From the NCBI RefSeq assembly GCF_964340395.1, contig NC_135554.1, positions 14,620,592 through 14,684,591 of the forward strand: a DNA stretch of 64,000 nucleotides, in the 5' to 3' direction. Below the pieces are notes generated by a model. The model was given only the letters and a program-made list of their open reading frames with translations, was not told the origin of the DNA and searched no databases. Position numbers and translations under genes: made by a program. This DNA is from Glandiceps talaboti (lineage: Eukaryota > Hemichordata > Enteropneusta > Spengelidae). This document shows, one piece after another, positions 17,701 through 58,600 of this stretch. Every line of letters starts with the position of its first letter. The stretch's first letter is position 1.

Positions 17701-20700
17701 ACTCTCTGTGAATAGAGTTAATAGTCTTGTGTTGGTGTTCTGATATGCTGATGTCATTGTGCTAGGTTTTAATGACAGCTGGGTTATTGTAGCACTATCA
17801 TTGCCTTGATATTTGTGCTATGTTTTAATGACAGCTGGGTTATTGTAGCACTATCATTGCCTTGATATTTGTGCTAGGTTTTAATGACAGCTGGGTTATT
17901 GTAGCACTATCATTGCCTTGATATGTGTGTTAGGTTTAATGACAGCTGGGTTATTGTAGCACTACCATTGCCTTGATATGTGTGCTAGGTTTTAATGACA
18001 GCTGGGTTATTGTAGCACTATCATTGCCTTGATATGTGTGCTAGGTTTTAATGACAGCTGGGTTATTGTAGCACTATCATTGCCTTGATATGTGTGTTAG
18101 GTTTAATGACAGCTGGGTTATTGTAGCACTACCATTGCCTTGATATTTGTGCTATGTTTTAATGACAGCTGGGTTATTGTAGCACTATCATTGCCTTGAT
18201 ATTTGTGCTAGGTTTTAATGACAGCTGGGTTATTGTAGCACTACCATTGCCTTGATATTTGTGCTATGTTTTAATGACAGCTGGGTTATTGTAGCACTAT
18301 CATTGCCTTGATATTTGTGCTAGGTTTAATGACAGCTATGTTATTGTAGCACTACCATTGCCTTGATATTTGTGCTAGGTTTTAATGACAGCTGGGTTAT
18401 TGTAGCACTATATATCATTGCTTTGATGTTTGTGCTATTTTTGTTGATAGGCTGTTTTTCACAGTGCTGTCAATGTCTTCATATTTTTGCCTTGTTTTAT
18501 TGACAGGTGGTTTTTTACAGTGCTGTCAATGTCTTCATATTTTTGCCTTGTTTTATTGACAGGTGGTTTTTCGCAGTGCTGTCAATGTCTTCATATTTTT
18601 GCCTTGTTTTATTGACAGGTGGTTTTTCGCAGTGCTGTCAATGTCTTCATATTTTTGCCTTGTTTTATTGACAGGTGGTTTTTCGCAGTGCTGTCAATGT
18701 CCGGCGTATTTGCTTGTACATTTTCCATAGTGTTTGCCTATGTGGCTGATATCACTGATGAATCTGATAGAAGTGCTGCCTATGGACTAGTAAGTTTATC
18801 TTTACATCCAAGTCTTAAAGTAATGCATGATATCCTTGGGCAAGGCTTGTATCTCCATGGTAACAAGTCTTATCCTTCTAGAATTATCTGCCAGCTTACA
18901 TGTATATCCTTTCAGAGTACTACCAGAGTCTAGCTATTTCATCTCTTTGTAATGACATTTTCAGATCATTATAAAGTCTCTTGCAGTGAAATTTTGCGAT
19001 CTAAGCTAAAAACAGACATTTGTCACATTTATGGTGGTGAGACCGTATTACTGATTTAATTGAAATTAACCAATTATATCTGTCATACTTTATTACTTCA
19101 GGTTTCTGCCACCTTTGCTGCAAGCCTTGTAACCAGTCCTGCAATTGGTGCTTATCTTGGAAATATTTACAATGATAATCTAGTCATATTTGTAGCATCA
19201 GTTGTTGCCATGGCAGATATATTATTTTTATTGGTGGCCGTGCCAGAATCTTTGCCAGAAAAAGTACGACCAGCTTCATGGGGTGCTGCTATCTCCTGGG
19301 AACAGGCTGATCCATTTCAGGTAAATTAAGAATACAAATGTTAGTGGAGGCTGGTATTCTGTGAGTAATTTGATGCTTAGTATAGAACTCACAAGGCTTT
19401 GTTTAAGGTTTGTGTATGTGAGTGCAGTGTGATGTAACTGCTGGATCACGAGTTTAAAGTCATTAACTATCTCATGTTATGAGAATGGGGATGTGTTCTA
19501 AGTCAAATACATCTTTGCAATTGACACGATGTTAGATTTCATTATGTGTTATTGTAAAGTGAACTAAATGAACCCTACCTACAGGGCATTTAATGTAAAT
19601 CATACCATTGATGACTCTTTGATTCAGACACAAGCTAGCAAAATTTATTGAAGTAACTGATGTGTCATTACTAACCCCCTATCTCTGTATTATATTGTAT
19701 TTCTGTCATTACTTGCCCTTATCTCCTATCTTATAATTATGTATTCTGTCATGACTGACCCCTATCTATTTTGTATTTCTGTCATCGCTGACCTCCTATC
19801 TCTGTACTGTTTTGTATTTCTGCTCTTACTTGCCCTTATCTGCTATCTTATAAGTATGTATTTTTGTCATGACTGACCCCCTATCTATTTTGTATTTCTG
19901 TCATCGCTGACCTCCTATCTCTGTACTGTTTTGTATTTCTGCTCTTACTTGACCTTATCTCCTATCTTATAATTATGTATTTCTGTCATGACTGACCCCC
20001 TATCTAACGGTATTTTGTATTTCTGTCATCGCTGACCTCCTATCTCTGTACTGTTTTGTATTTCTGCTCTTACTTGACCTCATCTCCTATCTTATAATTA
20101 TGTATTTTTGTCATGGCTGACCCCCTATCTATTTGTATTTCTGTCATGACTGACCCCCCCCCCCCTATGTATTTGTATTTCTGTCCTTACTGACCCCTGT
20201 CTTATTTGTATTCTTGTTATTATCAACTGCCTGTGTATTGTGTCTGTCTTTAATGACCACATATCTTATTTGAATTTCTGTCATTACTGACCGACTATCT
20301 CTTTTGTATTTGTGTCATTACTGACTCCCTTTCTATTTTGCAAAATAACATAATGTTAATGGTATATGGTATATATAATGGTATATACTTTCTATTTTCT
20401 TTTATGTTATTACTTACCCCTATCTATTTTGTATTTCAGTCATTACGTAAAGTAGGCCAGGACCACACAGTACTGTTGTTATGTGTTACTGTGTTTCTTT
20501 CCTATCTACCTGAAGCTGGCCAGTACTCTTGTATGTTTCTTTATTTAAAACAGGTAAGTAAAAAAGATGTAATTTAGTTTAATAACACATACAAAAGGGT
20601 ATATGTTGTATGGCTATGACAATCTTAGTGTTAACTCGCTAACTCAAAGCAATATACCTTGCCGTGGCTATCACATGTGTTATCTAGAGAATAAACGTGT

Positions 20701-23275
20701 ACACTGTAGTTGGAAAGTTAGGAGTTTGTGTGACCAACAAAGGCTGCATAGTTTGTAAATTTTGTTGTTTAAATCAATGTATAGCCTTCAATGAGTTCAA
20801 TGTCAGTATGCCATCTCATGTAAGGATTGATATAAGCGTGATGAACAAAGGTGAAATTCATTTATTTCTTTTGTCTTATGTTAATCTTAGGTGATGAAAT
20901 TTTCAGCTGAAGACATTGCAGCATTTATTGCAGTTATAGGAGTCCTTTCAGTGTTTGCACAGGTAAGATGGTAACGCTGCATTTTGACTTTCAGAGAGGG
21001 GAGGGGGCTATGTGCATATATTAAATTATGACTTTCAAAAAGAGGAGGGAGATGGGCTGGTGAGGCTGATAGGGAAGGGGTATTGGCATCAGTAAGTTAT
21101 TTACACTACTAATACATTTTGAGTTCACAGAGGGAAGGGAGATGAGCTTGTGAGGGTGAGGGGGTAGTTTCACAGTTGAGATGATTGTACTACATTCAAA
21201 AGAGGGGAGGAAGATGGGCATGATCGAGAGAGGTGGATAAAACGATGGCTGCAGTTTGGTAGGAATGTAATCATGGTATTGTAATCTATACTCAAACAAT
21301 GTGATTGGGAGGAAGGGTTAGAAAGGATGGTGTCAGAGTTATATATATTGTTATGAGTGGACGTGGATGGACTGTATGTGTCCTGTGCAAGCTGACTTCC
21401 TATTTCTCTTTATGTCACAAAAATATTTACAGAATTCTTTTCCATTTCAGACATATATTTTGGTTCTGCTCATGAGAATTATTTTCTGTACATGTATCAC
21501 AATTTTATGTACCTTTATTTTCCATTTGTAGACATTGTTGAGAATATTTTTTCTCTGTACAGCATAATTATATCAGTAATGTGTTTTTATATCCTAATTC
21601 TAGACATATGTCCTGGGTCTGTTGATGAGAACAGTTGGTAACAAGCATACAATACTGATAGGTTTAGCATTTGAAATGTTAGAGTTGTTATGGTTTGGTT
21701 TTGGATCTCAGTACTGGATGATGTGGGCAGCTGGTGCCGTGGCATCAGTCTGTAGTATTACATACCCAGCAATCAGTTCACTAGTCTCAACGAATGCTGA
21801 AGCTGACCAACAAGGTAAGATGTGAATCGATCTGTTGTGAATGGAATTATTTATGTGCATCATTTGAGATGAAAGACAATTATATACTGTTAGATGCTAA
21901 TTTAATTTGGTAGATCAACAATTAGAGACTTTTGACAACAGAGATGGATTCTACTGACATGTTTTTTCTTTCAAGACGATATTGTTCACCTCTATGGACT
22001 GGAATTTTTTCCATTCTAAAGCTCTAGTGTCTTTCAGGACAAGAAAAGTTTCACTTCTAAGTATTTTGATATACTCTTTTGTAATCCTGACAGGGTTAAA
22101 GAAAGATTTCAACATTCTCTCATTGCATAAAATGAACTGTATTGACTCATTCAGCATTATGGTTTTACTCTGCCAGGTTACCAAACACCTGTTTAAAATT
22201 ATAATTTAAAAAACTTGGTAGTTGTAAAGTGTTACACCCCCTGAGCTGTTGCTATGATACCAATGGTATGTTTTATTCTATGTAAGTTAAACTGTGTGGT
22301 ATTAGCCATGTTAATGTCGTATACACTTTTCAATTTCCAACACAGACAGTTTTAGAAAGCTGTGTCTAATGGTTTTGTCCTTTTACAAAGGACTTTCATC
22401 AACAGACTGAAGTATGCACTAAAACAAAGGTGTAGCCCGAGAATTCACATCACTCACTTGCTTAGTTCCCAAGTATGTGAAAGATTAAACAGCCCCCGTC
22501 CCTGTCCAATGATAAGTTGTTATGTTTTGTTTGATAGGTGTAGCCCAAGGAATGATAACAGGAATTCGTGGACTTTGTAACGGATTAGGTCCAGCCCTCT
22601 TTGGATTTGTGTTTTATCTTTTCCATGTGGAACTAAATGATTTAGATGCACCAGAACTTCCTGCCGACACAGATCAAAAACAGACAGAACCACATCTAGA
22701 GAACCCAATGACATTGGTAAGTTTGCACTTTTAGTCCTGTCCTTTCTTGTGAATCTATTTCCCTGTGACATTTTATGAATGATGAAACATTTTGAAAACT
22801 ACATAAACTAAAAAATTGCATTCAGAAAATTTCAGAAGTTAGCTCATATCTTGCAGTCATGCCAAGCTATTTGCATGCAGCACAATTAACAGAAATAACA
22901 GTCAGGAAATGGAGACTTGCAGTCTGTCATAGAATTATCTGATACATATGTAGTATACATATGTTACTTCTTATCACATTAGAGTTAATTTTGTTTTCTC
23001 TTTTCCTTTGTTTTCAGAGTATTATGCCAGGACCACCGTATATCTTTGGAGCATGTGCTGTTCTACTTGCACTTCTTATTGCATTTTTCATTCCAGTTAA
23101 GCCCTCCAGTCATAGTCATTCACTAAGACCACCTAGGTCACCCATTAAAAGAACTAACAGCAACTCCAGTGATTTTAGTGACGGTGCAACTGTTATACAT
23201 GTTGATGATAATATAAGACTTACACATGAAAAAGAACCTTTAATGACTAGTGGTGATCTCTCAGACTTTTCATAG
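4597..23275 (+). CDS. MFSD14A: MFSD14 / HIAT1 major facilitator superfamily transporter, 11 exons
   Basis: Coding exons: 4597-4677, 6738-6827, 8381-8443, 17203-17330, 18675-18789, 19102-19320, 20440-20553, 20891-20962, 21604-21814, 22538-22716, 23018-23275. All junctions are GT-AG and in phase, giving 509 residues against about 490 in human HIAT1. The read follows the family from end to end: IKDSGGT then GIGNPSIYHALIVIFLEFFA (28-47), HTFLMNGLIQGVKGFLSFLS, the MFS motif A block GALSDVWGRKSFLL (about 90-103), FAYVADITDESDRSAAYGLV, SPAIGAYLG, VAVPESLPEKVRPASWGA, QADPF, VFLSYLPEAGQY, and QGMITGIRGLCNGLGPA. The order implies 12 membrane helices. The cytosolic tail (about 440-509) is Ser-rich and ends in a KEPLM acidic stretch like vertebrate KEPLLQ. 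The human paralogues MFSD14A/B are orphan transporters proposed to act in endosome-Golgi membranes; the substrate is not established. Introns 4, 6 and 8 contain acceptor-derived repeats, and intron 3 (8.8 kb) is mostly satellite. No AATAAA was found between the stop and 24460. Confidence 0.96.
8684..8906. repeat. ATGT / TG / ATGC / GTCT compound microsatellite
   Basis: In intron 3 of MFSD14, about 240 bases after exon 3: TATG units, then TG, then ATGC, then TATG and GTCT units. Frames open on both strands across it are repeat artefacts. Confidence 0.95.
9420..9582. mobile_element. Degenerate hairpin element, related to 33060-33231
   Basis: The left end ATTATTCCCCAATATTTTTC followed by GATTCAGCC is the inverse of a right end reading GGCTGAACTAAATTTTTTTG then GGGAATGAT. 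The left arm closely resembles the arm of the hairpin in DCAF15 intron 4 (CCCAATATTTTCCTTCATTC then AGTCA). This looks like an older copy of the same non-coding family, in MFSD14 intron 3. Confidence 0.5.
10430..10738. repeat. C-rich repeats and ATTC microsatellite
   Basis: Degenerate copies of a CCCTCTAACACTCCCCCTCTGG-like unit of roughly 28-35 bases run from about 10430 to 10630. ATTC units (about 10686-10728) and a short AT tract follow. All lie in MFSD14 intron 3. Confidence 0.8.
11143..11492. mobile_element. TTAA-flanked palindromic MITE, copy A (350 bp)
   Basis: The two halves are inverted copies: AAAGCAATTTTATCATGGC pairs with GCCATGATAAAATTGTTTT, and ACCAAGTCTGTGTTTG pairs with CAAACACAGACTTGGT. 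TTAA stands immediately outside both ends (11139-11142 and 11493-11496), and the right end is GGCCACT. A second copy at 24463-24808 has the same ends, middle and TTAA flanks. TTAA targets are typical of piggyBac-like transposons. Non-coding, in MFSD14 intron 3. Confidence 0.85.
12355..16655. repeat. 52-bp minisatellite, about 82 copies (4.3 kb)
   Basis: The unit reads GATAACTGAGTATGGACAAA, ATTATTTGTTATTAGCCATA, TTTACCATGTAT. It repeats from about 12355 to 16655 with very little length change; one copy near 12745 is shorter. Variable sites are few and recurrent: ACTGAG/ACCGAG/ACCAAG/ACTGTG, GACAAAA/GACAGAA, CATGTAT/CATTTAT. The edges are more divergent than the interior. It fills about half of MFSD14 intron 3, with stop codons in the unit, so it is not coding. 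Confidence 0.97.
16895..16990. repeat. Purine-rich GGAT/GACA/GGGA microsatellite
   Basis: Short runs of GGAA, GGAT, GACA and GGGA units about 200 bases before MFSD14 exon 4. Confidence 0.8.
17740..18674 (+). repeat. 56-bp array derived from the MFSD14 exon 5 acceptor
   Basis: About 16 tandem units fill most of intron 4 and end exactly at exon 5. The last units are near-perfect copies of the end of the intron plus the first 24 or so bases of exon 5 (TTTTATTGACAG then GTGGTTTTTCGCAGTGCTGT). AG sites fall at an exact 56-base spacing: exon-like starts at 18451, 18507, 18563, 18619 and the true one at 18675. Older units to the left (TTTTAATGACAGCTGGGTTA type) are diverged but keep the 56-base period and align to the same unit. 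Using any upstream copy would add 56n bases and soon meet a stop. Confidence 0.93.
19660..20439 (+). repeat. Repeats derived from the MFSD14 exon 7 acceptor
   Basis: About 20 degenerate units built on CTATCTATTTTGTATTTCTG then TCATTACTGACCCC occupy most of intron 6. The real acceptor reads CTATCTATTTTGTATTTCAG then TCATTACGTAAA: the decoys match the intron end and the first exon bases but mostly carry CTG instead of CAG. There is internal higher-order structure of roughly 110 bases between 19735 and 20110. Confidence 0.8.
21440..21603 (+). repeat. Diverged duplicate(s) of the MFSD14 exon 9 acceptor
   Basis: At about 21447-21482, CATTTCAG is followed by ACATATATTTTGGTTCTGCT and CATGAGAAT, a diverged copy of the true exon 9 start (TTCTAG, ACATATGTCCTGGGTCTGTT, GATGAGAAC). 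It encodes TYILVLLMRI against TYVLGLLMRT in the real exon. A shorter third trace (GTAGACATTGTTGAGAAT) lies near 21528. The copy lacks the rest of the exon and has no nearby donor that I can see. Confidence 0.7.
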
Positions 23276-24458
23276 CAGTAATATTCTATGTAGTGTGATG
23301 TGATGGCTCACTTTTTCATAGTGTTAATGTCATGTGTATAGCACTATGTGAGTACTCACTTTTCATACTGGTTGTAGCATGTGAAGCTCTGTATGAGAAC
23401 TCACTTCAAGATGTATCATTCCAAGACAGTCAAAGAAGGACCAATGGTTGCCAATTGTAGTGGATGTTGACTTGGTTTTGTATGGATATGATTTGTATGG
23501 TAATTCATGTTGAATGCACTCCATGCAGACCTACGTAGCAGTAGCACCGAAATCACTGTGTAGAAACTCAGACTCTGTCATAAAGATGTCACAACTCTCT
23601 GTCATAGTGAAATCAGTTCTTTCCATATGATGAAGTCATATAAAATGCTAGTATTTTTTATGTGCGATTTAAACCAGTGTTACTAACTGTCTGTAAGCCA
23701 ACTGAATTCTTGTGGCATGTTGTCAAATATATGTATAAATGTTTGTGACAGTTTTACAAGTTTATAGCTGTGGCACTTATAAAGTGTACAGTCTTTGAAA
23801 TGTTTAAATTCCTCCTCAACTCAGGTTGTTATTTCTGTATATGAGAGTGTACAAATACTGCGCCATGATTCTCAGTGCATAGCCACCATTTCAGCATTTG
23901 TTGGTGTATGTATGCTGAACTGTGGTTCCCCAAAACTAGCATTTCTATATATTGCACCATTTCTACATGCACTGGTGAGCATCCAATGTGGAGCTGTAAA
24001 TCTGGATAGCTATCATTTTCTGTATTTGATGTATCACATACTTACTGAACAGAGATTCCTAATAGCTGCAATTTCAGTATGTATCACATATCAGCTGAAC
24101 CATAGATCGGTCATGCATGGGTCTATGGCTGAACAGATATTGTTGATAGCTGCCATTTCAGTATGTATTATATATCAGCTGAACCATAGACAATGCACTG
24201 GTCTATGTCCTGTTACTACAACATTTCTATAATGTATAAACAGAAGTAGCCAAAATACTGAAAACAATGCAAGCCTGAATTGAGCACATATTTTGTTTAA
24301 ATTGATTCAGAATCTGTATTTTTGTATTTAGTATATGGTAGTCACCACACTAAACTAACGTTGTTGTATATCATAGGAAGTGTTTAATATTGAATGAATT
24401 TGTTTTATTTTTGTTGTCTTTATAGTGTCATGCAAGTATTCCAAATACATAGTGGTAA
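23276..24458 (+). other. Probable MFSD14 3' UTR and downstream sequence
   Basis: No exon-like match was recognised. A 145-codon frame at 23795-24232 has no known counterpart; its second half is a tandem duplication (two copies of a block encoding IAAISVCI-YQLNHR), so it is best taken as non-coding. No AATAAA was seen up to the MITE at 24463. Confidence 0.5.
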
Positions 24459-24462
24459 TTAA

Positions 24463-24808
24463 AGTGGCCATGTGAATGAGAAGTGGGTATTTATTTTGGA
24501 TTTTTTATTGCTAAAACAACTTTACTGTGTTGCTACTTGAAAAAAAACAGTGTGAGATAACATATAGCAAGTCCTTGTTTATAACTCAATAAATTGCAAA
24601 ACATTGAAAAAATGTGTAAAATTGGTTATTGTTGTACATGCAATAACAAACTTTTTATACTTTTTGCACCTTTTTGCAATTTATTGAGTTATAAACAAGG
24701 ACTTGCTATATGTTATTTCACATTGTTTTTTCTAAAAACACATAGTAAAGTTGTTTATATCAATTAATAATCCAAAATAAATACCCACTTCTCATCCATA
24801 TGGCCACT
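24463..24808. mobile_element. TTAA-flanked palindromic MITE, copy B (346 bp)
   Basis: Same family as 11143-11492. The ends are AGTGGCCATGTG and its near-inverse ATATGGCCACT, with TTAA at 24459-24462 and 24809-24812. AACATATAGCAAGTCCTTGT pairs with ACAAGGACTTGCTATATGTT. It includes an AATAAA near 24589 that a read-through MFSD14 transcript could use. Confidence 0.87.
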
Positions 24809-25380
24809 TTAACTTATAACTGTCCTCTCATGTATTCCAAAAATTTGTATCTGAGATATTTTTTTGTTGAGAAATGCATCTTTTATTTCTACCTCTGTAC
24901 GCTAAATGTCAAACAAATTTTAGTATTAGCATTATTAATCCTCCAAATTCAGTCACACAGTCATTGGTCTTATAGAGATGGAGCCCACCATCTGATGCTA
25001 ATCTTGAAATTTAAAAAAAAAACCAAAAAAAAAAACCATTGTTACATTCCTTCCCTTTATCATATTCAGAGTCATTTGTGTTTTCAAACAGTGTGTCAAA
25101 GCAACCTATCGTTCCAAATATGTTTAGAACAAATCTTACTTTGATACATTATTTACATTTTGTTTGGCTTGTTTAATACATTGTTGTGTTACATCAGTAG
25201 TTGCTATAGCTTTTAGCCCTCAAAACCAACTACTTTGTCATGAGAATCGTTAGAACTGATTCAGTAAGCCATAACCTCCTAAGTCATCATCAAACACTTG
25301 TGTATGTTGAAATAATTACATGTAAATTATCACATGCACAGTTCACATGCTTAACTCCCGTGTTCACCTATGCTGTGCAT

Positions 25381-25635
25381 GTACATTTACATAATGACCT
25401 CATTTGAATAATGTCATGGTTGTAATCAGGCTACTGGGTGTACATTTACATAATGACTTCATTTGAATATTGTCTTGGTTGTAAGCAGGCTACTGGGTGT
25501 ACATTTACATAATGACTTCATTTGAATAATGTTGTCTTGGTTGTAATCAGGCTACTGGGTGTACATTTACATAATGACTTCATTTGAATAATGTTGTCTT
25601 GGTTGTTATCAGGTTATTGTGTGTACATTTTCAAA
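25381..25635. repeat. About 62-bp minisatellite, four copies
   Basis: Four units containing TGTACATTTACATAATGACT, TCATTTGAATAATGT and AATCAGGCTACTGGG. The first and last are the most diverged. Intergenic. Confidence 0.9.
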
Positions 25636-25639
25636 TTGT

Positions 25640-27410: not shown

Positions 27411-27419
27411 TTGACAATG

Positions 27420-27830
27420 CACTGTGTGGTTTCTGCTCTCTCTATCTCCGAAGCAACTTACATTTAAACAAGCACACACAGTCAGATCTACAAGACAAAG
27501 AACTGGTCCACCCATTCTGTATGAACCACCATTCAATAAAAACTTACTATCAATATTTGCTGTATCCAAGAACAATCTGCGAATGGAATGTGCTACCTCC
27601 CACTATCCGTGCTGCCAAGAACATCGAGTCAACTCCTTCAAAACATTACTACAACAAGCAAACTTTAAGACCTAACCAGAGCTCATAAACTTTAAACATT
27701 TACTAGGACATCATCTCCACACTGACCTGTGCTTCATAACTGCAAGATGTTTTGCACAGTATCAAGCAGAAGCAGAAACAGAAGTGGTCATTCTACTACG
27801 CATCCTTCCTGTACTAAACAAATAAACAAG
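27420..27830 (+). mobile_element. LINE 3' remnant (reverse transcriptase C-terminal tail)
   Basis: The plus strand encodes, with a frame change, STRQRTGPPILYEPPFNKN and then YPRTICEWNVLPPTIRAAKN. This matches the end of non-LTR retrotransposon polymerases (R....K.SFFPRTIREWN.LP..I..A). It is short and decayed and lies in intergenic DNA between MFSD14 and DCAF15. The clade cannot be fixed from this piece; CR1, L2 and Rex1 groups all carry this tail. Confidence 0.7.
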
Positions 27831-31900: not shown

Positions 31901-34900
31901 GCTAACTTTAGTGTCAACTTATATGAATAGATTGGTTATGCGTATTTGATAAATTAAAGTTCTTTTGATAAAAAATTACAATGTGCACGAACTTAATTAT
32001 ATATATATATATAAAAAAAATATCTGGTTGAGAATGTCACCAGTTTTTCTGAAGAAATTTTGATTTTTCTGCAGGAGGCTGTAGTTTTCCACTATCATGG
32101 GCTTCATTTCTGGTCCAAGGACTTCTCCTGAACAGCACCCCCAGTGCCCAAATTATGCAGTCTTGTGTTTCTTAGATCTGTCTGGAATGGAAAATGAGAT
32201 CTGATAATGTAAAACTCATTAGGATAGATTACATGTATGACATGTACTAATATTATGTGTATTGATAAGAAACAGAGCAACTCCCATGACATGTGAGTGC
32301 AAGTGTGACATACCTGGGGTATTTACATTGAGTACATTGACACTCACAGTGCGTGGGATTCTGTTATCATTACATGTTTATCTGATATAGCAAATTTCCA
32401 TAAAATTTGTGTTGTGCTATCACACGGTTTTGTGTGTAAGCAACAACTGCCCCTTACAACGGTTGCATGCAGGAGGTATGTAATAATGTTTTCGGTATTG
32501 CACTACAATGCAAACACCACTAGTATGTGCATCTGTTAATCTCTGGTACATAGGTAATAATACACATTGTATGTCTTATTTAAGTTTTTTTATTTATGCT
32601 AACTATTATTATGCCGTATATGACTTTCTGTTTAGGTATCTGAAGTCCGGCTGTTTGGTGAAGAAGAAATACAAGATGATCTGTGTATTGCTGTGTGTAG
32701 CTGGCCAGCTGATTCTACTAAAGTCTTTGTATATGGAAGGTATTGTATGTCATATGTCATATATAGGGTTGTCGGTGGCCGAGTGGTTAAACCACTTGCC
32801 TCTTACCACTGCGGTCGGGGTTCGAACCCCCTTTCAGGGTTCGATTAAATTTACCATGCTGTAAGTAAGAAGAGTGTCGTTCAGTTTGACTCTACCGAAC
32901 AACGCAGGTTTTCCCCGGGTACTCCGGTTTCCTCCTGCATTAACACTGAACCCACGAGGGATGGCCCTCACTGGACTTCTTGGGAGACAAGTGTTTATAT
33001 GCTTAAAGAACTATCCAGTATAAATAAAGATTATTATATGTACATCAAATAAAACTAAGGGTAATTAGATGCTATTCCCAATATTTTCCTTCATTCAGTC
33101 AAGGAAAATATGAGTGATCTAAGGGGTCGTTGTCACTACTCATCTAGCGACTTGTAGTGACAACCCTTAGGTCACGAGTACTTTCCCTGGCTGAATGAAG
33201 GAAATATTGGAAAATAACGTAATTATACCATTGCCAGTAATATCAAAGAAAAATCGGGGAAAGTAATGGCAATTTTGAATGTTTTGATTCATATTTTGAA
33301 CACAGCAGAACCAGTGATGTAGACACGCCACTGTCGTGACATAGACGCATGTTGTCATGACGTAGAATGACCTGAGTATATATTCCCTATTTTTTGTTCA
33401 ACTTGGCTTGTGCGTTGTATAAGTTGGATGTGATGTGATACAGAGATTTGATACCAGACATTTCTTAATTTCTTTTTTTCTAGTTGTCCAAGTGGGGGGA
33501 GTGGAGATGAGAAGAGACAATGTTATATAACAATCACTGCTGTGCCTTCAGTGGTTCCATGTATTGATTGTACCAATCTTAACAAAGCAGCATCCAGTCA
33601 TAACAATAACAACTACTTCAGAGATGGTAAGTATCACTAGCCTTGTTCACACCAAGTTTATCCTGTTGCAGGCACTATTCATAAGTTGTAATAGAGGTAG
33701 GATAGGTTTGCATGTAGATATTAATAGAAGAAATAGGGTTGGTCAGTATCACTTTCAAAGAGGCAAAGTACATCAATTAGTAAGGTATTCTATAATGCAG
33801 GAGGATTTCATGAGACCTTTTGTAAGTCTGGAGGAGTCGATGAGACCTTTTGTAAGTCTGGAGGAGTCGATGAGACCTTTTGTAAGTCTGGAGGAGTTCA
33901 TGAGACCTTTTGTAAGTCTGGAGGAGTTCATGAGACCTTTTGTAAGTCTGGAGGAGTTCATGAGACCTTTTGTAAGTCTGGAGGAGTTCATGAGACCTTT
34001 TGTAAGTCTGGAGGAGTTCATGAGACCTTTTGTAAGTCTGGAGGAGTTCATGAGACCTTTTGTAAGTCTGGAGGAGTTCATGAGACCTTTTGTAAGTCTG
34101 GAGGAGTTCATGAGACCTTTTGTAAGTCTGGAGGAGTTCATGAGACCTTTTGTAAGTCTGAAGGAGTTCATGAGACCTTTTGTAAGTCTGAAGGAGTTCA
34201 TGAGACCTTTTGTAAGTCTGAAGGAGTTCATGAGACCTTTTGTAAGTCTGGAGGAGTCGATGAGACCTTTTGTAAGTCTGAAGGAGTCGATGAGACCTTT
34301 TGTAAGTCTGAAGGAGTTCATGAGACCTTTTGTAAGTCTGGAGGAGTTGATGAGACCTTTTGTAAGTCTGGAGGAGTTGATGAGACCTTTTGTAAGTCTG
34401 GAGGAGTTCATTAGACCTTTTGTAAGTCTGAAGGAGTTCATGAGACCTTTTGTAAGTCTGGAGGAGTTCATGAGACCTTTTGTAAGTCTGGAGGAGTCGA
34501 TGAGACCTTTTGTAAGTCTGGAGGAGTTCATGAGACCTTTTGTAAGTCTGGAGGAGTTCATGAGACCTTTTGTAAGTCTGGAGGAGTTCATGAGACCTTT
34601 TGTAAGTCTGAAGGAGTCGATGAGACCTTTTGTAAGTCTGGAGGAGTTCATGAGACCTTTTGTAAGTCTGAAGGAGTTCATGAGACCTTTTGTAAGTCTG
34701 GAGGAGTTGATGAGACCTTTTGTAAGTCTGAAGGAGTCGATGAGACCTTTTGTAAGTCTGGAGGAGTTCATGAGACCTTTTGTAAGTCTGGAGGAGTTCA
34801 TGAGACCTTTTGTTAGTCTGGAGGAGTTCATGAGACCTTTTGTAAGTCTGAAGGAGTCGATGAGACCTTTTGTAAGTCTGGAGGAGTTCATGAGACCTTT

Positions 34901-37900
34901 TGTAAGTCTGGAGGAGTTCATGAGACCTTTTGTAAGTCTGAAGGAGTTCATGAGACCTTTTGTAAGTCTGAAGGAGTTCATGAGACCTTTTGTTAGTCTG
35001 GAGGAGTTCATGAGACCTTTTGTAAGTCTGGAGGAGTTCATGAGACCTTTTGTAAGTCTGGAGGAGTTCATGAGACCTTTTGTAAGTCTGGAGGAGTTCA
35101 TGAGACCTTTTGTAAGTCTGAAGGAGTCGATGAGACCTTTAGTAAGTCTGAAGGAGTTGATGAGACCTTTTGTAAGTCTGGAGGAGTTCATGAGACCTTT
35201 TGTAAGTCTGGAGGAGTTCATGAGACCTTTTGTTAGTCTGGAGGAGTTCATGAGACCTTTTGTAAGTCTGAAGGAGTTCATGAGACCTTTTGTAAGTCTG
35301 GAGGAGTTCATGAGACCTTTTGTAAGTCTGGAGGAGTTCATGAGACCTTTTGTAAGTCTGGAGGAGTTCATGAGACCTTTTGTAAGTCTGAAGGAGTTCA
35401 TGAGACCTTTTGTTAGTCTGGAGGAGTTCATGAGACCTTTTGTAAGTCTGGAGGAGTTCATGAGACCTTTTGTAAGTCTGGAGGAGTTCATGAGACCTTT
35501 TGTAAGTCTGGAGGAGTTCATGAGACCTTTTGTAAGTCTGGAGGAGTCGATGAGACCTTTTGTAAGTCTGGAGGAGTTGATGAGACCTTTTGTAAGTCTG
35601 GAGGAGTTCATGAGACCTTTTGTAAGTCTGAAGGAGTTCATGAGACCTTTTGTAAGTCTGGAGGAGTTCATGAGACCTTTTGTAAGTCTGAAGGAGTTCA
35701 TGAGACCTTTTGTAAGTCTGAAGGAGTTCATGAGACCTTTTGTAAGTCTGGAGGAGTTCATGAGACCTTTTGTAAGTCTGGAGGAGTTCATGAGACCTTT
35801 TGTAAGTCTGGAGGAGTTCATGAGACCTTTTGTAAGTCTGAAGGAGTTCATGAGACCTTTTGTTAGTCTGGAGGAGTTCATGAGACCTTTTGTAAGTCTG
35901 GAGGAGTTCATGAGACCTTTTGTAAGTCTGGAGGAGTTCATGAGACCTTTTGTAAGTCTGGAGGAGTTCATGAGACCTTTTGTAAGTCTGGAGGAGTCGA
36001 TGAGACCTTTTGTAAGTCTGGAGGAGTTCATGAGACCTTTTGTAAGTCTGAAGGAGTTGATGAGACCTTTTGTAAGTCTGGAGGAGTTCATGAGACCTTT
36101 TGTAAGTCTGGAGGAGTTCATGAGACCTTTTGTTAGTCTGGAGGAGTTCATGAGACCTTTTGTAAGTCTGAAGGAGTTCATGAGACCTTTTGTAAGTCTG
36201 GAGGAGTTCATGAGACCTTTTGTAAGTCTGGAGGAGTTCATGAGACCTTTTGTAAGTCTGGAGGAGTTCATGAGACCTTTTGTAAGTCTGAAGGAGTTCA
36301 TGAGACCTTTTGTAAGTCTGGAGGAGTTCATGAGACCTTTTGTAAGTCTGAAGGAGTTCATGAGACCTTTTGTAAGTCTGGAGGAGTTCATGAGACCTTT
36401 TGTAAGTCTGGAGGAGTTGATGAGACCTTTTGTAAGTCTGGAGGAGTTCATGAGACCTTTTGTAAGTCTGGAGGAGTCGATGAGACCTTTTGTAAGTCTG
36501 GAGGAGTTCATGAGACCTTTTGTAAGTCTGAAGGAGTTCATGAGACCTTTTGTAAGTCTGGAGGAGTCGATGAGACCTTTTGTAAGTCTGAAGGAGTCGA
36601 TGAGACCTTTTGTAAGTCTGGAGGAGTTGATGAGACCTTTTGTAAGTCTGGAGGAGTTGATGAGACCTTTTGTAAGTCTGGAGGAGTTCATGAGACCTTT
36701 TGTAAGTCTGAAGGAGTTCATGAGACCTTTTGTAAGTCTGGAGGAGTTCATGAGACCTTTTGTAAGTCTGGAGGAGTTCATGAGACCTTTTGTAAGTCTG
36801 AAGGAGTCGATGAGACCTTTTGTAAGTCTGGAGGAGTTGATGAGAACTTTCATAAGTCAGAAGCAGATTTAGTAGACCTTTTTGTAAGTCAGTAATTAAG
36901 GAGACCTTAACACTCTCTTCTAAGATTCAGATAAAAGTCTAACCCTCCTTGATCTGATAGTTGCATATTTCATTCATATTACAGAAGACAACTCATTTTG
37001 GAATTACCCAGAAGTGCCTGAAAGGGACTCGTCCCCAAAAGTATTACCAAGGTGTATCAGGCATAGTTTTGTTGTGCACACAAAATATGAACTGTCACCC
37101 CCATTTCCTTTATTTGCACCCAAGTTCAGCCTCAAGAGAGATGGTCTTGCTGTGATAACTACTGGATATTCTTTGATAGCTCTGGGTATAAAGGTGAATT
37201 TGTGTTCTCCTGTATCCAGTACACAAAGTAGTCTGTACTCGGCTACCAACACTGCCACCGTCACTCAGACAGGTCAGGATAGCATTACTACTGCCACAAG
37301 TACTTCTCATGGAATACACACAATGTCACAGACTTCACTTGATACTAGTGATTCAAGAGAACTTGGTTGTAATTTACACCACACACCACATACCATTTCT
37401 ATGCAAGATAACTATGTCAATAAAATGGAGTCATCCTCTGCAATGGCTAATCCACAACACCCAGCTGTCAATAAAACTGAAGAAAGCTGTTCATTTGTCA
37501 ATCAAGAAGACACTACTGTCAACAGAATAGAAGCAAACTGTTCATTGGCTAATCAAGAAGATACCAGTGTCAAGCAAAAAGAAGTGAGTTGTTCATTGGC
37601 TCATCAAGAAGATACTAATGTCAATAAAGCAGAGCGGTGTTATTCAATGGATAATCTAGAAGAGGATAAGCTTCCATGTTCACAGATGTCTCAGGAACCT
37701 TTATTTGATTCAGTGAGTGACTACCACAGTGTACAGTCTGTCCGTATGGATTGTGCATTACCTGTAGATAATAAGAATCTAACCCAGAATGTAGTAGTAC
37801 GAGAACGACAACAAATTGGTGAAATGTCATACAAAGTTACCTCCACTGGAAAGAAGAGAGTATTGGAAATACACAGTGATTCTAAGTTAAGTGACGAATA

Positions 37901-40900
37901 TAGGGCCACACAACCTAGCCATGTACACCCAAAAGAAAATGATCAGATTTTTTCCATGCTGTTACCAGAACTAAGATATTCCATGACTGTGAATCCTGGG
38001 TCTCCAAATGAAGACTATGAGAACGCAGACAGTGATGTGACATGCATCTCAGAAAATAGTAATCCTGGACACAGTCTGTCAAGAGACAATATGCAGTATG
38101 GTGATTCTCAAGCCAGTGATGTTCCTGATGAAAATGAACCTACAGAAACTATCAGTGCTTGTAATAACTGCATGGAAAAGAGTCTTGAAAACTCAAAACA
38201 GATACCACTACGAATACTCAACAGTAACCTATATAGTCCAAGTTCAAGCAGTGAACATCACCTGTTTGAGACAAACCATATCAACTATCAGTCCAATTCA
38301 GCCATGCCATTCACCAGACACTCACATCCATGTAAGATAGAAACTAAACACAGTAAACCTACAAACACTCCATGGAGTCAAAGTCAAGATGAACGCATTA
38401 AATTCAGTTGTACCGACAGTGACAATATTGGGTGTGAAATTGATCAAAGTTGTCCTATTCATGGTGCTACTACTATTAATCTGACCTGGAGTATCACCAG
38501 TTCAACTGATTTGGATAAGTGTAACTGTCAACAAAGAGGCTTTAACTATTCTGTCAGGAGATACGTAGAATGGGTTCCAGATTCAGATTCACCATTGGAT
38601 ATAGAAGGTGAGAACAAACTAACATGAGATTACAATGTGAGAACAAACCAACATGAGATATAGAAGGTGAGAACAAACTAACATGAGATATGTAGAATCA
38701 TAGACCCTCCACCGACATTGGTGGAGGGTCTATGTTAGAATGGGTTCCACAGATTCAGATTCACCATTAGATATAGGTGAGAATAAACTAGCATGAGATA
38801 TACTAAGTAGAAGGTAAAAACAAACTAATACAGGATGTAGGTGAAAACAAACTAACTCTAGGTATAGGTGGGAACAAACTAACATTAGATATGTAGACGT
38901 TAAAGTTAGAACAAACTAAGACACGGTATCATTGTGATCCATTTTGCCAAAATATACATGTACATGCTGTAGATACTAAATAACATGTCAAATCGTTCTC
39001 ACTTATAGATGAATTTCACAGTATGCTGCCTTTGGAAGTCCATGGTGCAGGATATTCAATGATGACAAGAACAAGGAGAAGTCCAGAAACACAGGTAAAA
39101 CTGTTTATATGTATGATTTACAAAGGTTATAACACACACACTCAGCAGTTCAAACATATCTATGTTTATATAATAATAATGTTGGGTTCTTATATAGCGC
39201 TTTCCCACGCCGTGCTCAAAATGCTTTACAATGTATTTATATGTATGTGTACAATGTACACAGGTTATTTCAGGTTGTGTAAGTACTTTGTTAGTACCTG
39301 ATGGCAAAGGACTGCAGTGATAGGAATCAGTTCAGTCTATTTATCTGTTCATTCTACAATACATGTAGAACTGATGAACCCATGGTAACGTTGTAGAACT
39401 TTGACTGAAATAGTGGATTTTACTATGTAAATACATGAGTAGTTCTGTACTGGCAAAGGAGCGGTAGGATTTGGTTCATGTCAGCCTGATTTGATGAATA
39501 CATTATAATTCAGGTGTAAACACCTATAGTTGAGCTCATGATGTGTGCTCATTACAGGCTTATTATCACTTGTGTGAGCATGTGTGAGGGTGTTTTCACA
39601 CAGTTGAAAGCTTCTGCAGAGATGTGGAGGGAAACCAACATTTGGCATCTAGAAGGGGCTATGGCAATGAATCCTGTCTGCCCATCTGTAGTTTCGATAA
39701 TGTGTGTATTGTAGGTGTATACTTAGTGACCTACAATTAATTTCATCCACTGGTCTTTTTGATATCAACAGGGTACATACATTGAAGTCAAACAGTTAAC
39801 AATGGATGCTGAGCAGTATATCAGTGAAGCAGTCAGATCACATGCAAAGTGGCAAGACAGATATTTAGATTTTACAGACTATGACATGCAGATCCTAGAT
39901 GTAAGTATCTATAGGTAGTGTATATATTAGTATGGTACAGATCTGTAATTGTAGATTTTACAGATAATGACATACAGATCCTAGATGCAAGTATCTATAG
40001 GTAGTGTATATGTTAGTATGGTACAGATCTGTCATTGTAGATTTTACAGATAATGACATACAGATCCTTGATGTAAGTAATCCATGGATGTAGAATGGTT
40101 TTTGTTAGCCCTCAATGGGCACTGCCCAGAGGGACTATTATATTTGGTTCTGTCTGTCCATGTGTGCATATGTGTGCACATGTTCACCTCATATCTCTGA
40201 CATGCACCAACTTTTTTCAACCAAACCTGGCACAATGGTTTTTATGTACAGGTATGTCCAGATATAGATGCTGGCAATGAGATAGTGTTGATCTGTAGTC
40301 AACATGAAACACTAATCTGCATGTAAGAAAGATCTGTACTATGCTTGACATAAATCTTGTCGTTATGTACAGGTATGTCCTGATTCCTGCAATGTGATTG
40401 TGTTAATCCTGGCATTAGTGAGAGCCAAGCCAGAGTATGATCCATGGAGTCTGGATTTTGAGACAGAAGAGTAAGTACAATAGAAGACAGTAAGGGCCTA
40501 AACCTGAAACAGAATTCTGGCTGGCTCAACAACAAAAATTAAAAATAATTGCACTACATTTTATTGTCTGGCTGGACAAAAACATAACTAAGTCTGCTAC
40601 ATTTCATCATCTGGAATGAATAAAATCATACCAACATTTTCTTTGCATGGGCTACCATATACTCTCTGTACAGCCAGGTGACATTCAGTTTCAGTCTGAC
40701 TAGCTTGTAATGTAAAAGATACCTTATTGCTTGTGTAATATGTGATTTTTGTACACCTTATACTGGTAAGTTTAAATGTGAAATAATATTGGGCCAACTT
40801 TTTCAACTCTGGATATCTGCATATCTTATTAGTCTATATTGTGAAATGTACACACTGTGTGAGTGTTGTTGTGAGATTAATTAATGCTAGTTGGAATGTA

Positions 40901-47151: not shown

Positions 47152-47187
<36 letters not shown>

Positions 47188-48100: not shown

Positions 48101-48437
48101 ATTATGTTACTCAAACATGGTAAACCTTTATACTCTCCCCAATTACAAAAGTCTGCAAATTTTCCATCTAATTTGTTCCTGGAGATCTAGATTTTGCACA
48201 TTATTGAGTCTGGTGCAATCCATATACCGTATGTATAATAATGTAACAAAAGACACATCGAAGAAAAAGTACGGTCAGCAATATTTCTGCTGAATCAAGT
48301 CAGATGCCAGTCAGCACACAATAAAAATATTGAATACACATCATGCAAAATACATGAAAGAAAGAAATGTGGATTAAAATTCCACTTGATATTATATGTA
48401 AATGCCAGAATTCTATACAAATGATTTTCTCAAAAGG

Positions 48438-51400: not shown

Positions 51401-54400
51401 ACATCGAGACGCAAGCGATGAATGTATTTAGTTATTCATAGCTCGAATTTTCGTAACGTAAATGACGTTTTTATTCACAATTTTGAAGAAAAAAATTATT
51501 TTAGGTGACTTATAAATCTAGTAACATCAAACCATACAATAACGAGGACAAACTTTAGTTTTTGATTTATTTTTCGGGATATGTCTGAATTAGACTGACG
51601 AATGCTGCGACTCAATCTTACACGATCAATGCACAAGCTTGACGAAACGGCTACTTAGGGGGTAGGACAGAGGTTTCTCCGTTAATCTTAGCGTGTAAAC
51701 GTGGTTTTGAAACCAACATCTTGCATAGTGTCGATTGTCTTTAAAATGTTTTGTCACATATTATGGGAACTGTTGTTGATTTTTCTCGTCCACATCAGAC
51801 AATTAGATGTCATTCAAAAAATATACTTTAGTGTCAACACCCCTGGAAAATGGCCAAAATTAATATGAATACCCCTGGAAAACTGACGAAAAACCCCTGG
51901 AAAGTCCTGGAATTTTGTTTTGCTTTAAGTGTACGAACCCTGTAATGTCAGTTCTACAGCTTTATAAAACCATAAATTAAATTGTACCAGAATCCAGCAC
52001 AGATCTGTACCCCCCAAATTATTGCTTGTAGACAATAGCTGCCTAATTAGTGTATTCATACATTGTAATTGGTGGTAACATCCAGAATTAGACAACCCTA
52101 CAAGAAAACATTTACAGAATTCAAATATAGGGCAAACCACTATTGGGGAATTAATGTATTCAGACGATATGTATGCAGAAGACTGATGGAGTGATTGTCA
52201 GCAACTGAGAATGTGATGTGTTATAAAACAGTTATTGTCTGGCCATATTATTGTATTAGGGCACTATTTGTGTTATTTGTAACAACTATTTCTCTGAGGC
52301 TTTCAAGTTTCCAAATGGTTCATACATTACAATGTCTGACTACACGTCTGTCATAGATGGTGAATTTGATATCAATTTCTAACTGACACTAGCCTCTGAT
52401 ATCACTGGCTGACTACCAGTCTATAAAAAACACACACCTTGTGGCTGTATTGCTAACAGATGAACCAAGGGTTGTAATGTTCTTGGAAAGAAAGAGCCAA
52501 GTTGAATGTGTGGCTGAAAATAAATGAAAATGTTACTATTAATGATTTGAAAGTGTCTTGTAATAGCTGTATGCTACGATCAATCAATCAGTCAGTCACT
52601 TTAGAAGATAATATTTGCATTATGACAAATCAAAGACATTAACATTATATATTGTGTTTAAGAAATGATGAAATAACAAGCAATTTGTTTTGACCAATTC
52701 AAAAACAAACAATATCACTGTTATGAAGCTATTTCGATGTCGAGTTTTACCCAGAGTTTGGAGCTATTTTCTTAGCTACACCGTTATAAACTAAAACCTC
52801 TTTTATGACACTGTCCAAGACGCACTGCACCCGTGATATTTCACAGTGTCGCAGAAGAAATATTGACTGTATTTGCGAGAATGCTAGAGTTTGACTGAAA
52901 TTGTGACCTTTGGAAGTAGGGAATTAGATAAATTCCTCTTAATTATAACAACATGAATATCCTTGCTGTATCAATCAATATAATGGCTAAGCCTTCAACC
53001 CAGACCTATCTATACTTTCATAAATTGTACAGTTTTGACTGTCTTACCTCTGTGACATCAGATGACACTGCATCAATCAAAGACAACAAGAAGACACTGA
53101 TCAATCTCAGTACAAGACAGTTGCCATGACAGCTCACATAGATTGACTTCAGAATGGCATTAACTGCATGGTAAATAGCTGGGTTCTCAACACATGCTGT
53201 TGGCTGTATAGTACAAGATAAATAATATCAAAATGTTTATTAACATAATTATGAGATTGATGACAATTTTTAGACAGGATATAGATAGTGAAATTTAAAT
53301 ATGAACTGTAGTCACATACATTAAGTCAATATCATTGATATTTCACTATCAGTATAAAATGTATCTGAATACACAACAAATCAGTTTACCTTTCCATGAC
53401 TAAAATGTAATAGTTGATATGACATGTTTTCTACACATACATGTAGAGTTGTTGCGAATCAGTCAGTCACTTACCAAGTTCCTTACATGACATGTTTTCT
53501 ACACATACATGTAGAGTTGTTGTGAATCAGTCAGTCACTTACCAAGTTCCTTACATGACATGTTTTCTACACATACATGTACATAGTTGTTGTGAATCAG
53601 TCAGTCACTTACCAAGTTCCTTACATGACATGTTTTCTACACATACATGTACATAGTTGTTGTGAATCAGTCAGTCACTTACCAAGTTCCTTACATGACA
53701 TGTTTTCTACACATACATGTACATAGTTGTTATGAATCAGTCACTTACCAAGTTCCTTACATGACATGTTTTCTACACATACATGTACATAGTTGTTGTG
53801 AATCAATCACTTACCAAGTTCCTTACATGACATGTTTTCTACACATACATGTACATAGTTGTTGTGAATCAGTCAGTCACTTACCAAGTTCCTTACATGA
53901 CATGTTTTCTACACATACATGTACATAGTTGTTGTGAATCAGTCAGTCACTTACCAAGTTCCTTACATGACATGTTTTCTACACATACATGTACATAGTT
54001 GTTATGAATCAGTCACTTACCAAGTTCCTTACATGACATGTTTTCTACACATACATGTACATAGTTGTTGTGAATCAATCACTTACCAAGTTCCTTACAT
54101 GACATGTTTTCTACACATACATGTACATAGTTGTTGTGAATCAGTCACTTACCAAGTTCCTTACATGACATGTTTTCTACACATACATGTACATAGTTGT
54201 TGTGAATCAGTCACTTACCAAGTTCCTTACATGACATGTTTTCTACACATACATGTACATAGTTGTTGTGAATCAATCACTTACCAAGTTCCTTACATGA
54301 CATGTTTTCTACACATACATGTACATAGTTGTTGTGAATCAGTCACTTACCAAGTTCCTTACATGACATGTTTTCTACACATACATGTACATAGTTGTTG

Positions 54401-55645
54401 TGAATCAATCACTTACCAAGTTCCTTACATGACATGTTTTCTACACATACATGTACAGAGTTGTTGTGAATCAGTCACTTACCAAGTTCCTTACATGACA
54501 TGTTTTCTACACATACATGTACATAGTTGTTGTGAATCAATCACTTACCAAGTTCCTTACATGACATGTTTTCTACACATACATGTACATAGTTGTTGTG
54601 AATCAATCACTTACCAAGTTCCTTACATGACATGTTTTCTACACATACATGTACATAGTTGTTGTGAATCAGTCACTTACCAAGTTCCTTACATGACATG
54701 TTTTCTACACTTACATGTACAGAGTTGTTGTGAATCAGTCACTTACCAAGTTCCTTACATGACATGTTTTCTACACATACATGTACATAGTTGTTGTGAA
54801 TCAGTCACTTACCAAGTTCCTTACATGACATGTTTTCTACACATACATGTACATAGTTGTTGTGAATCAGTCACTTACCAAGTTCCTTACATGACATGTT
54901 TTCTACACATGCGAATCAGTCACTTACCAAGTTCCTTACATGACATGTTTTCTACACATACATGTAGAGAGTTGTTGTGAATCAGTCACTTACCAAGTTC
55001 CTTACATGACATGTTTTCTACACATACATGTACATAGTTGTTGTGAATCAGTCACTTACCAAGTTCCTTACATGACATGTTTTCTACACATACATGTAGA
55101 GAGTTGTTGTGAATCAGTCACTTACCAAGTTCCTTACATGACATGTTTTCTACACATGCGAATCAGTCACTTACCAAGTTCCTTACATGACATGTTTTCT
55201 ACACTTACATGTAGAGTTGTTGTGAATCAGTCACTTACCAAGTTCCTTGACTTAATGACTGACATGACATATTTTCTACTAATCCATGGTTTTTGAACAA
55301 CTGTGACTTTCACAAGATTGTAGACTTCTTGTTGTAAAGCTGGTAGATGTCTCAACCAAAGCTGAACTCGTCCTCTGTAACTTAATTTTAGTACTGAAAG
55401 AAAATACAAATACTAGATCAATCCTCCAGTTTCACAGTTGACCTTACATTGTTAACTTTTGGAGTAGAATGTCCAAATTAAACAGACAACCAATCTGTCA
55501 GGGAATTATTTGAGTTTACAACTTGTGACCAAAATTCACATTTTTATATTGTTTGCAAAACAAAATCCAATCATTTTGCCTTAAAAAAGCCACTTCCCAT
55601 TGAGTATCATAACAAGTGGCCAGCAGTTTATGACAAGAGTTGTCT

Positions 55646-55676
<31 letters not shown>

Positions 55677-58600
55677 AACATACACACACATACACATACA
55701 CAAACACACACACACACACACAGACAGACACACACACAGACAGACAAGAGTACTTCACTCCCTTAATTTACTTATCAAATTTGTAAACTTTTACAAAAGG
55801 TGATTGTTCTCTTCATCATGAGTATGTGAGTGAATCTGTTCATGGGTATCCTGAACAAGTTACCACCAATTAAAACAGGAAAATCATTCTAGGATCACAA
55901 TATATGCTTGACCCTTTTTGAAAACACAGGAGAGATGTAGTTTTATGCACTTCTCAACTCAAATCCACATAATACAGACAGAAATAACAGGCCACATGAT
56001 TTCAAAATAAACATCTCTGACACCATTACAACTAAATACAAAACGTGAAACCATTTTTGTCAACTACTTACCACAATTTTCTTTTGAATAACAATCATTT
56101 TGAAGTTCTGTTACAGTGTTTAGAAATGTAGGTGACAATTCTTCTAAAGTTGATGCTGAGTGACAACTAAGTAAACTTTCTATGAGTGTCAATGTTTGAG
56201 GCATATTTATCAATGGAAGACACATATTTGAAATCTCAGTCAGGGTATTATTAGTAATATTGTCTGTTAGGGTATTATTGCCTATATTGCCTTCTCTGTA
56301 GTTGTCATCGTATCTGCCATCTATGTTTCCTGATGCACCATCTGGGTTACCACTGAAATTCCTGTGTATATTATTTCCTACTGTAAGGTCCTTGTGGTTG
56401 CTTAAGTGACATCTCACAGGTACAAGACAACTGAAACACGGTATGAGGTAATAACAAGATAAATACCTATTTAGAATAAATATTATTTTGAAATACATAT
56501 AACATGTTAAATTACAAATTGTGAATTTGTCAAATTATGTAATGTAAGCGAAAATACCCTGCAATACGCCATATTCTAGTTATAGGAGAGATAAAAGATT
56601 TCATGGTTTGGCCACTGGGAGTGCTGTTCGCAAGCTGTTTGGTGACAAAAAGTGAGAATAGCAGAGTATTGTAGCATAAAGACAGCAGACATGAAGATAT
56701 GACTTGATTTCCACATCGTTACTCCAGTAATCAAAACATGCCTTAAACCATTACTGTAATACAGAAGTTCTTTTACAGCTACACATTGAAATTGAAATTG
56801 AAATTTATTCCACCAGAAAAGAAAAATATATACATAAACTTTGAAAGCAACGGGTAGAACATTTCTGGTGAGGGCCATGGAAATAGTTTGCAGGAACTAA
56901 TCAATGTCCATGGACCGTGCGTGCAGATAATAAATACAAATTTGGGCTGGTATGAATTTCACAATAACAACAAGAATACAATTCTTAGTAATTAAAGAGG
57001 TATGTTGGTGGCAAACATTTGTTCAAGGCTGCATGCATTGCCACACAATAATTGATTCATCATTTGACAAGTCAAAGCAAATTAACTTACTTGGTACCAG
57101 AGTTCCATTTCCTGAGGCACTGACTCTCCAGATCGGCTTGGATTGCACCTATCAACTAATGAAATATGGTACATCTTTGATTTACATCATATGCATTCTT
57201 GCATGTAAGGTAATGTTTTTTCTGCTGACACAATAAAAACCATAGCCATCATCATCTTTATTAACCTTGTCAACTGCTCATTGGTTAAATTCACCAGGGT
57301 TATAAAACCATATCATTATCAGCCAACACTATATTTGCTGCCCTTCAGTCAATATCAAGTTCACTAACCTTGTCATTATTTGTTTGGTTAAAAGCCATCA
57401 TATCAGTCAATAACATCTTTATTAAACTCATCAACTGCTCATTGATAAAAATTCATGGGGGTGAGCCATCATATTTAATAACCTTGAAAATAAAGCCATC
57501 ATATCTGTCAATATTATCTTTTCTAACTTTCAGTCAATATCATCTTTACTAACCTTGTCAATTGCTATATGGTTAAAGTACTCGGGTGAATAAGCCATCA
57601 TATCAGTCAATATTATCTTTTCTGACTTTCAGTCAATATCATCTTTACTAACCTTGTCAATTGCTATATGGTTAAAGCCATTGGGTGAATAAGCCATCAT
57701 ATCAGTCAATATTATCTTTTCTGACTTTCAGTCAATATCATCTTTACTAACCTTGTCAATTGCTATATGGTTAAAGTAATCAGGTGAATAAGCCATCATA
57801 TCAGTCAATATTATCTTTTCTGACTTTCAGTCAATATCATCTTTACTAACCTTGTCAAGTGCTATTTGGTTAAATTCATCAGGTGAATAAGCCATCATAT
57901 CAGCCAATATTTATCTTTTCTGACTTTCCGTCAATATCATCTTTACTAACCTTGTCAAGTGCTATTTGGTTAAATTCATCAGGTGAATAAACCATCATAT
58001 CAGTCAATATTATCTTTTCTGACCCTCAGTCAATATCATCTTTACTAACCTTGTCAAGTGCTATTTGGTTAAATTCATCAGGTGAATAAGCCATCATATC
58101 AGTCAATATTTATCTTTTCTGACTTTCAGTCAATATCATCTTTACTAACCTTGTCAAGTGTTATTTGGTTAAATTCATCAGGTGAATAAGCCATCATATC
58201 AGTCAATATTTATCTTTTCTGACCCTCAGTCAATATCATCTTTACTAACCTTGTCAAGTGCTATTTGGTTAAATTCATCAGGTGAATATGCCATCATATC
58301 TGTCCTGAATGGATTTTCTGTTGGCCTGTAGCCAGCGACATGTTTTACTTGTGACTGCATAAAACAACACATATACACAACCTATCAAAAATCTTGACCA
58401 TCAAATCACATCACATTTTTGAAATGTATGTTGGGTTGAATTACAGAAATGTCTCATTTATCCATGTATTCAAAAGTTCAAAATATATGTCAAGTATAGC
58501 CTGGAATCTATAGTCTTGTTCTACAATTCAGTGTGAAGGTGTCAGTATAGTAGGGATGCTACCTCAAGGTCAGTATTTGTAGGGTGTGGCTGAGGCCTAA

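Follow-up and report, generated by a model that had tools for sequence, protein, structure and literature searches.

Why do tandem repeats in the introns of three neighbouring genes of the hemichordate Glandiceps talaboti contain the edge of the adjacent exon together with its splice site? The genes, MFSD14, DCAF15 and FANCC, lie in a 64,000-nt stretch of contig NC_135554.1 (C7:14620592-14684591, hereafter the window); the assembly, GCF_964340395.1, comprises 590 Mb divided among 47 contigs. A sequence-only reading of the window had named eight junctions of this kind and proposed a process acting well beyond these genes. To answer the question, about 275 kb of sequence were retrieved from the assembly, and the window, its right flank, a set of myosin loci and a set of systematically placed loci were examined. 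Copies spanning a splice junction were found at 17 junctions (seven in the window, ten outside it), distributed over seven genes and three contigs of chromosome scale (C4, C6 and C7). We consider it probable that these are minisatellites of the type known as mirages in amphioxus, that is, tandem duplications that arose locally across a splice junction and are tolerated since the exon-adjacent site stays in use.

Arrays were listed with Tandem Repeats Finder (TRF) and 40 nt of each exon edge were scored against the adjacent intron; the sequences were then aligned across the splice site, with exon and intron parts taken together. Seven of the eight junctions named earlier carry tandem copies that include both exon edge and splice site, and at all seven the alignment shows the two parts to have been copied jointly. 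The acceptor array of MFSD14 exon 5 (17757-18704, plus strand) consists of 56-bp units, each made of the intron end, the AG and approximately 27 nt of exon. It contains four exact GACAG/GTGGTTTTT sites (the slash marks the junction), including the real one at 18674/18675, and 12 GACAGCT sites (exon-edge score 54). At exon 9 of the same gene (21430-21633, plus strand) a single diverged copy (21430-21478) precedes the real acceptor at 21603/21604 (score 26). DCAF15, also on the plus strand, has three cases: 27-30 bp units at the exon 6 donor (38568-38890, real donor after 38607, score 62), 86-bp units at the exon 8 donor (39861-40108, real donor after 39900, score 56) and one copy (40228-40287) ahead of the exon 9 acceptor (40228-40402, real junction at 40372/40373, score 29).

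The two FANCC cases are donor arrays on the minus strand. One, belonging to exon 55239-55393, which we took to be the exon 7 of the sequence-only reading, extends over 53379-55288 in units of mostly 66 bp and holds 28 exact CTTG/GTAAGTGA sites, one of which is the real donor (score 30). The other, at exon 4 (57239-58309), is built of 99-bp units with eight exact GACAAG/GTTAGTAA sites, that at 58250 being the real donor (score 78). The remaining named junction, the acceptor of MFSD14 exon 7, did not hold up. The array upstream of it (19663-20340, plus strand) consists of intron-end sequence and its exon part is unsupported: no more than about 8 exon bases are shared (score 16, p = 0.28), the array stops 100 nt short of the acceptor, and the AG is kept in none of the 11 copies listed.

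The same anatomy recurs in sequence that the earlier reading had not seen, namely the right flank and the loci retrieved by a myosin-head search (the best 8 loci; 78 exon matches), which served as a test of its claim. Its expectation that the process would extend past the window was borne out by ten more junctions: three in SMARCA4, three in a NACHT/TPR gene and four at myosin loci. The SMARCA4 cases are all donors, namely an array of 13 36-bp units at the exon ending in KEYQ, one of 2.7 106-bp units at the exon ending in NPHQ and, where the exon ends in ASEQ, a further copy. The NACHT/TPR gene has a donor array of 2.7 63-bp units, a second donor copy, which is degenerate, and one copy of an acceptor. 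Among the myosin loci two of eight are positive, with three acceptor cases at L032 (on C4) and one donor case at L030 (on C6). The positive genes are thus five of the six that were followed along their full length, plus two of the eight myosin loci, each about 3.3 kb long. Donors and acceptors are both affected, inside the window and outside, as the earlier reading had stated. Array periods at junctions range from 27 to 117 bp; two cases with only two copies have spacings of 121 and 153 nt. Units do not appear to be centred on the junction, as had been supposed at first: the exon share varies between 0.30 and 0.90 over 14 junctions (mean 0.60).

Whether such arrays exceed what random placement would give was examined in two ways. 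When exon edges were compared to the adjacent intron, 15 of 198 edges scored at least 28, versus 2 of 150 mid-exon controls; this test missed MFSD14 exon 9 (score 26) and the FANCC exon starting at 55239, for which the query was 36 nt. In the placement test, the unit of each array was set at random across the gene body, with positions wholly within exons excluded. Over all genes, 11 of 29 arrays cover a junction where 2.21 are expected if the shortest TRF period is used (p = 1e-5); taking the best-score period instead raises the expectation to 3.57 (p = 2e-4). Intronic arrays thus lie at junctions 3-5 times as often as expected at random. The figures by group, with expectations for the shortest and best-score periods respectively, are 4 of 12 versus 0.62 or 1.22 for the window genes and 4 of 9 versus 0.74 or 1.22 for the myosin loci; flank and myosin loci taken together, all outside the window genes, give 7 of 17 versus 1.60 (p = 3e-4) or 2.35 (p = 0.003). 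Under varying rules the window genes yield 4-5 junction-covering arrays of 12 versus 0.5-1.25 expected.

Both tests have in common choices of our own making, namely the exon models, the overlap rule and the period. A 5-base exon overlap, in place of 4, loses MFSD14 exon 5 because TRF ends that array 4 nt into the exon (the alignment extends over about 27). Exons used were 24 for SMARCA4 (22 of 40 chained exons taken unchanged, the first with its edge reset, one new, and 17 omitted as unrecognised), 16 of 20 for the NACHT/TPR gene (one re-edged), 8 of 11 for TTC4, and 24 from seven of the eight myosin loci (two L032 exons added by eye; none from L028). Arrays with a TRF period below 20 were omitted from the placement test, as were arrays entirely exonic or beyond gene bodies (for example those at 25380, 37465, 62877, 87737 and 93307). 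The SMARCA4 donor at 84823, the second NACHT/TPR donor and the NACHT/TPR acceptor do not figure as TRF junction arrays in that test. An MFSD14 array off junctions (52 bp x 82; 12368-16647, plus strand) was entered as intronic.

Several observations weigh against the explanation that we favour. The three window genes were picked by the sequence-only reading itself, and some of the exons used beyond the window were predicted with a simple gene finder of our own. At a laxer threshold (p <= 0.02) the exon-edge test gives 18 of 198 edges versus 6 of 150 controls, and the flank genes alone are weak (3 of 8 versus 0.86 or 1.13 expected, p = 0.04-0.08). TTC4, followed over its length in the right flank, has no junction copies, and two of the three longest arrays in the window (12368-16647 and 33800-36890) lie off junctions. 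A set of 18 loci of 10 kb each, placed systematically and without regard to genes, has 27 arrays, not one of which contains a strong donor (0.74 expected); therefore arrays are generally not derived from junctions. Across the whole genome there are 623 pairs of CAGGTAAGT at a spacing of 24-54 bases, versus 264 for the reversed control motif, single sites being 7,510 and 5,869, respectively. This excess is modest per site (8.3% versus 4.5%) and is driven by a few large arrays; among the matches listed for C1 and for C2 up to 31.3 Mb, distinct pair loci are 11 versus 5. The motif counts point in the same direction as the junction excess and are not strong.

These last results fit the alternative that no special process is at work: duplications would fall evenly, those in exons would be purged by selection, and some of the others would cover junctions by chance. 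Chance alone should place about 8-12% of arrays at junctions, because units are long relative to introns. We regard this explanation as unlikely, given the counts of 11 of 29 over all genes and 7 of 17 outside the window genes, and given that the excess is present in young arrays too. It is about equally doubtful that duplication is even and that arrays at exon edges simply persist, being refreshed and staying recognisable while purely intronic ones decay. Such anchoring would fit the claim that units nearest the exon are the least diverged, which is valid for MFSD14 exon 5 (unit identity 1.00, 1.00, 0.96, 0.80 and about 0.70 moving off the exon), for DCAF15 exon 8 (0.91, 0.79) and, roughly, for FANCC exon 4. 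It fails for the long FANCC array, where identity is 0.75-0.80, without any gradient, among 11 copies listed of 28; this array also counts against the tolerated-duplication explanation that we prefer. Moreover, with the 4-base overlap rule, young arrays (TRF match at least 93%) are at junctions in 5 of 10 cases versus 0.60 expected, an excess as strong as that of older arrays (7 of 19 versus 1.74).

The excess may stem from a mutational bias at transcribed junctions or from re-seeding by the conserved exon-adjacent copy; the result with young arrays leans towards mutational hot spots rather than anchors that preserve arrays. A bolder version, which we put forward tentatively and do not favour, is that splice junctions are real hot spots of tandem duplication in some deuterostomes, owing to a mechanism that is linked to transcription or to splicing and shared by hemichordates and cephalochordates. 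About one exon edge in 12 would then carry a duplication spanning the junction, with a steady supply of spare splice sites.

For the mirage-type duplications that we favour, the sequence of events could be as follows. A tandem duplication of approximately 30-150 bp would land across an exon-intron border; the exon-adjacent copy would remain under selection and, presumably, in splicing use. The remaining copies, sitting in the intron, would be neutral, free to drift and to multiply into arrays via unequal exchange or slippage. Copies have indeed drifted, and in five cases the first copy lacks the GT or AG. The donor dinucleotide reads GC in DCAF15 exon 8, AT at L030 and AT at SMARCA4 84823, and the acceptor AG is replaced by AA at the third L032 acceptor and by TG at the NACHT/TPR acceptor. 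Such losses speak against selection for keeping the copies as spare or regulated splice sites. This we consider very improbable, even with the 28 and eight exact donors of the two FANCC arrays in its favour, as recent expansion could account for arrays of such homogeneity. Comparison of L030 with the paralogous exon in L026 identifies the exon-adjacent copy as the functional site; by comparison with the vertebrate proteins, the same presumably holds for MFSD14 exons 5 and 9 and for the KEYQ and NPHQ exons of SMARCA4. The spliceosome would presumably ignore the intronic copies. Among the causes proposed by the sequence-only reading (slippage, R-loops, tolerance), tolerance would fit best because the real site is the exon-adjacent copy wherever this can be judged.

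That the arrays are artefacts of assembly is the least credible possibility, hardly worth entertaining: unit sequences and periods vary between loci, copies within an array are diverged, and the pattern tracks exon edges in seven genes. The mitochondrial sequence adds a further argument. Contig C40 (51 kb) has three COX1 matches spaced 15,435 bp apart and therefore appears to be a concatemer in which the mitochondrial genome is repeated in tandem, which suggests a trace of long-read assembly.

A 4.3-kb portion of C40 (locus L034, 53% GC) was also read for gene order and codon usage. Its genes run in the order nad2, tRNA-Asn, a tRNA with anticodon TCA, tRNA-Ala, tRNA-Tyr, cox1, tRNA-Ser(TGA) and cox2; around cox1 we take it to be of the chordate/hemichordate rather than the echinoderm type. 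In nad2, cox1, cox2 and part of atp6, AAA and AGG are absent, AAG occurs 13 times and ATA is common. At each of the four ATA codons of cox1, one or both of two PDB chains have Ile or Val; at two of the four the other chain has Met. In passages of the literature on these codes, Balanoglossus reads AUA as Ile and lacks AAA and AGG, and Cephalochordata read AUA as Met and AAA as Lys (PMC3121625); ATA as Ile is given as common to echinoderms and hemichordates (PMC2697986). The genes examined thus show the enteropneust features (ATA as Ile, no AAA or AGG, protein genes of about 50% AT) and lack those of cephalochordates (mitochondrial ATA as Met, AAA as Lys). Judged by the mitochondrial genes, the sequence is most probably that of an enteropneust hemichordate, and an amphioxus origin was rejected. 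Genes for GFP are a further cephalochordate feature. A GFP search of the genome gave no match, a weak result as control genomes likewise gave none.

Among the window proteins, a Pfam search identified DCAF15, FANCC and a transporter of the MFS family; the fourth protein searched, the start of SMARCA4, was without a match. The latter gene, whose first 1.3 kb lie inside the window and the remainder in the right flank, and MFSD14 are named from the apparent agreement of their exon translations with the vertebrate proteins.

Other arrays were considered and set aside. One DCAF15 intron contains a 30 bp x 103 array (33800-36890, plus strand) with the donor-like TTTTGTAAGTCT in 94 exact copies; it was rejected as a mirage of exon 5, for want of exon similarity, and has no detectable link to any exon edge. 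Both its strands have open frames some 1,000 codons long. Outside the window, an array at L010:7425-7521, in a gene that we assume to resemble NUBP2, begins about 9 nt past a donor and another, at L030:1303-1489, about 11 nt past a myosin donor. No exon sequence was noticed in either and neither was counted; arrays adjoining donors in this manner may form a related class. An array at L031, some 90 nt ahead of an acceptor, was not counted. At L015:3329-3521, in a gene presumably of the PKD/REJ type, a 33 bp x 5.8 array has open frames on both strands and may be a coding repeat.

Further features of the window are unconnected to junctions. The window opens with 18.9 copies of the heptamer ACATAAC (1-132). 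Downstream of MFSD14, positions 24459-24812 contain two nested inverted repeats, with arms of 58 nt at 90% and 76 nt at 89% identity, whose arrangement looks like that of a foldback or MITE-type element. The segment 32768-33046 is a putative tRNA-derived SINE, to judge by its sequence; ARAGORN found no tRNA in the window. A search of the window against Rfam at gathering scores gave no matches.

Junction repeats of this kind are already known. The passages available on amphioxus mirages (Adh3, globins BflGb6 and BflGb9, troponin C, PGBD5) describe repeats across exon-intron borders, at both borders, with units of 10-160 bp and many copies carrying splice signals. The globin paper has both 5' and 3' boundaries duplicated and considers the phenomenon possibly general in cephalochordates (PMC3087553), so that acceptors are not the new extension that the sequence-only reading had taken them for. 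A second paper extends the list to PGBD5, with citations for Adh and troponin C (PMC3902484). In what these two sources report, the amphioxus cases are spliced normally and array length differs between haplotypes (PMC3087553, PMC3902484). By those accounts the amphioxus cases concern single genes of a cephalochordate, whereas here several genes of a hemichordate are affected, with a measured excess; one array in the present set reaches 28 exact donor sites. In the open-licence literature we found neither a report from hemichordates nor a genome-wide measurement of junction arrays. What the present data add is a second phylum, a total of seven genes spread over three chromosomes, and an excess that was measured.

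The arrays also resemble a model, cited in PMC3087553, in which introns are gained via tandem genomic duplication of AG/GT proto-splice sites. As outlined there, a sequence carrying splice signals is likewise duplicated in tandem within a gene; unlike in the model, the copies described here lie inside existing introns, at their junctions, and no new intron was noticed, none having been searched for. Intron gain by tandem duplication has reportedly occurred in the potato RdRp gene (PMC4974935).

The papers found describe junction minisatellites in a handful of amphioxus genes. Their presence in seven hemichordate genes would mean that they are more widespread among the genomes of invertebrate deuterostomes. 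It allows the idea of splice sites as mutational hot spots to be tested directly. It also provides natural cases in which the spliceosome chooses one among many identical sites, and examples on which models of intron gain through tandem duplication can draw.

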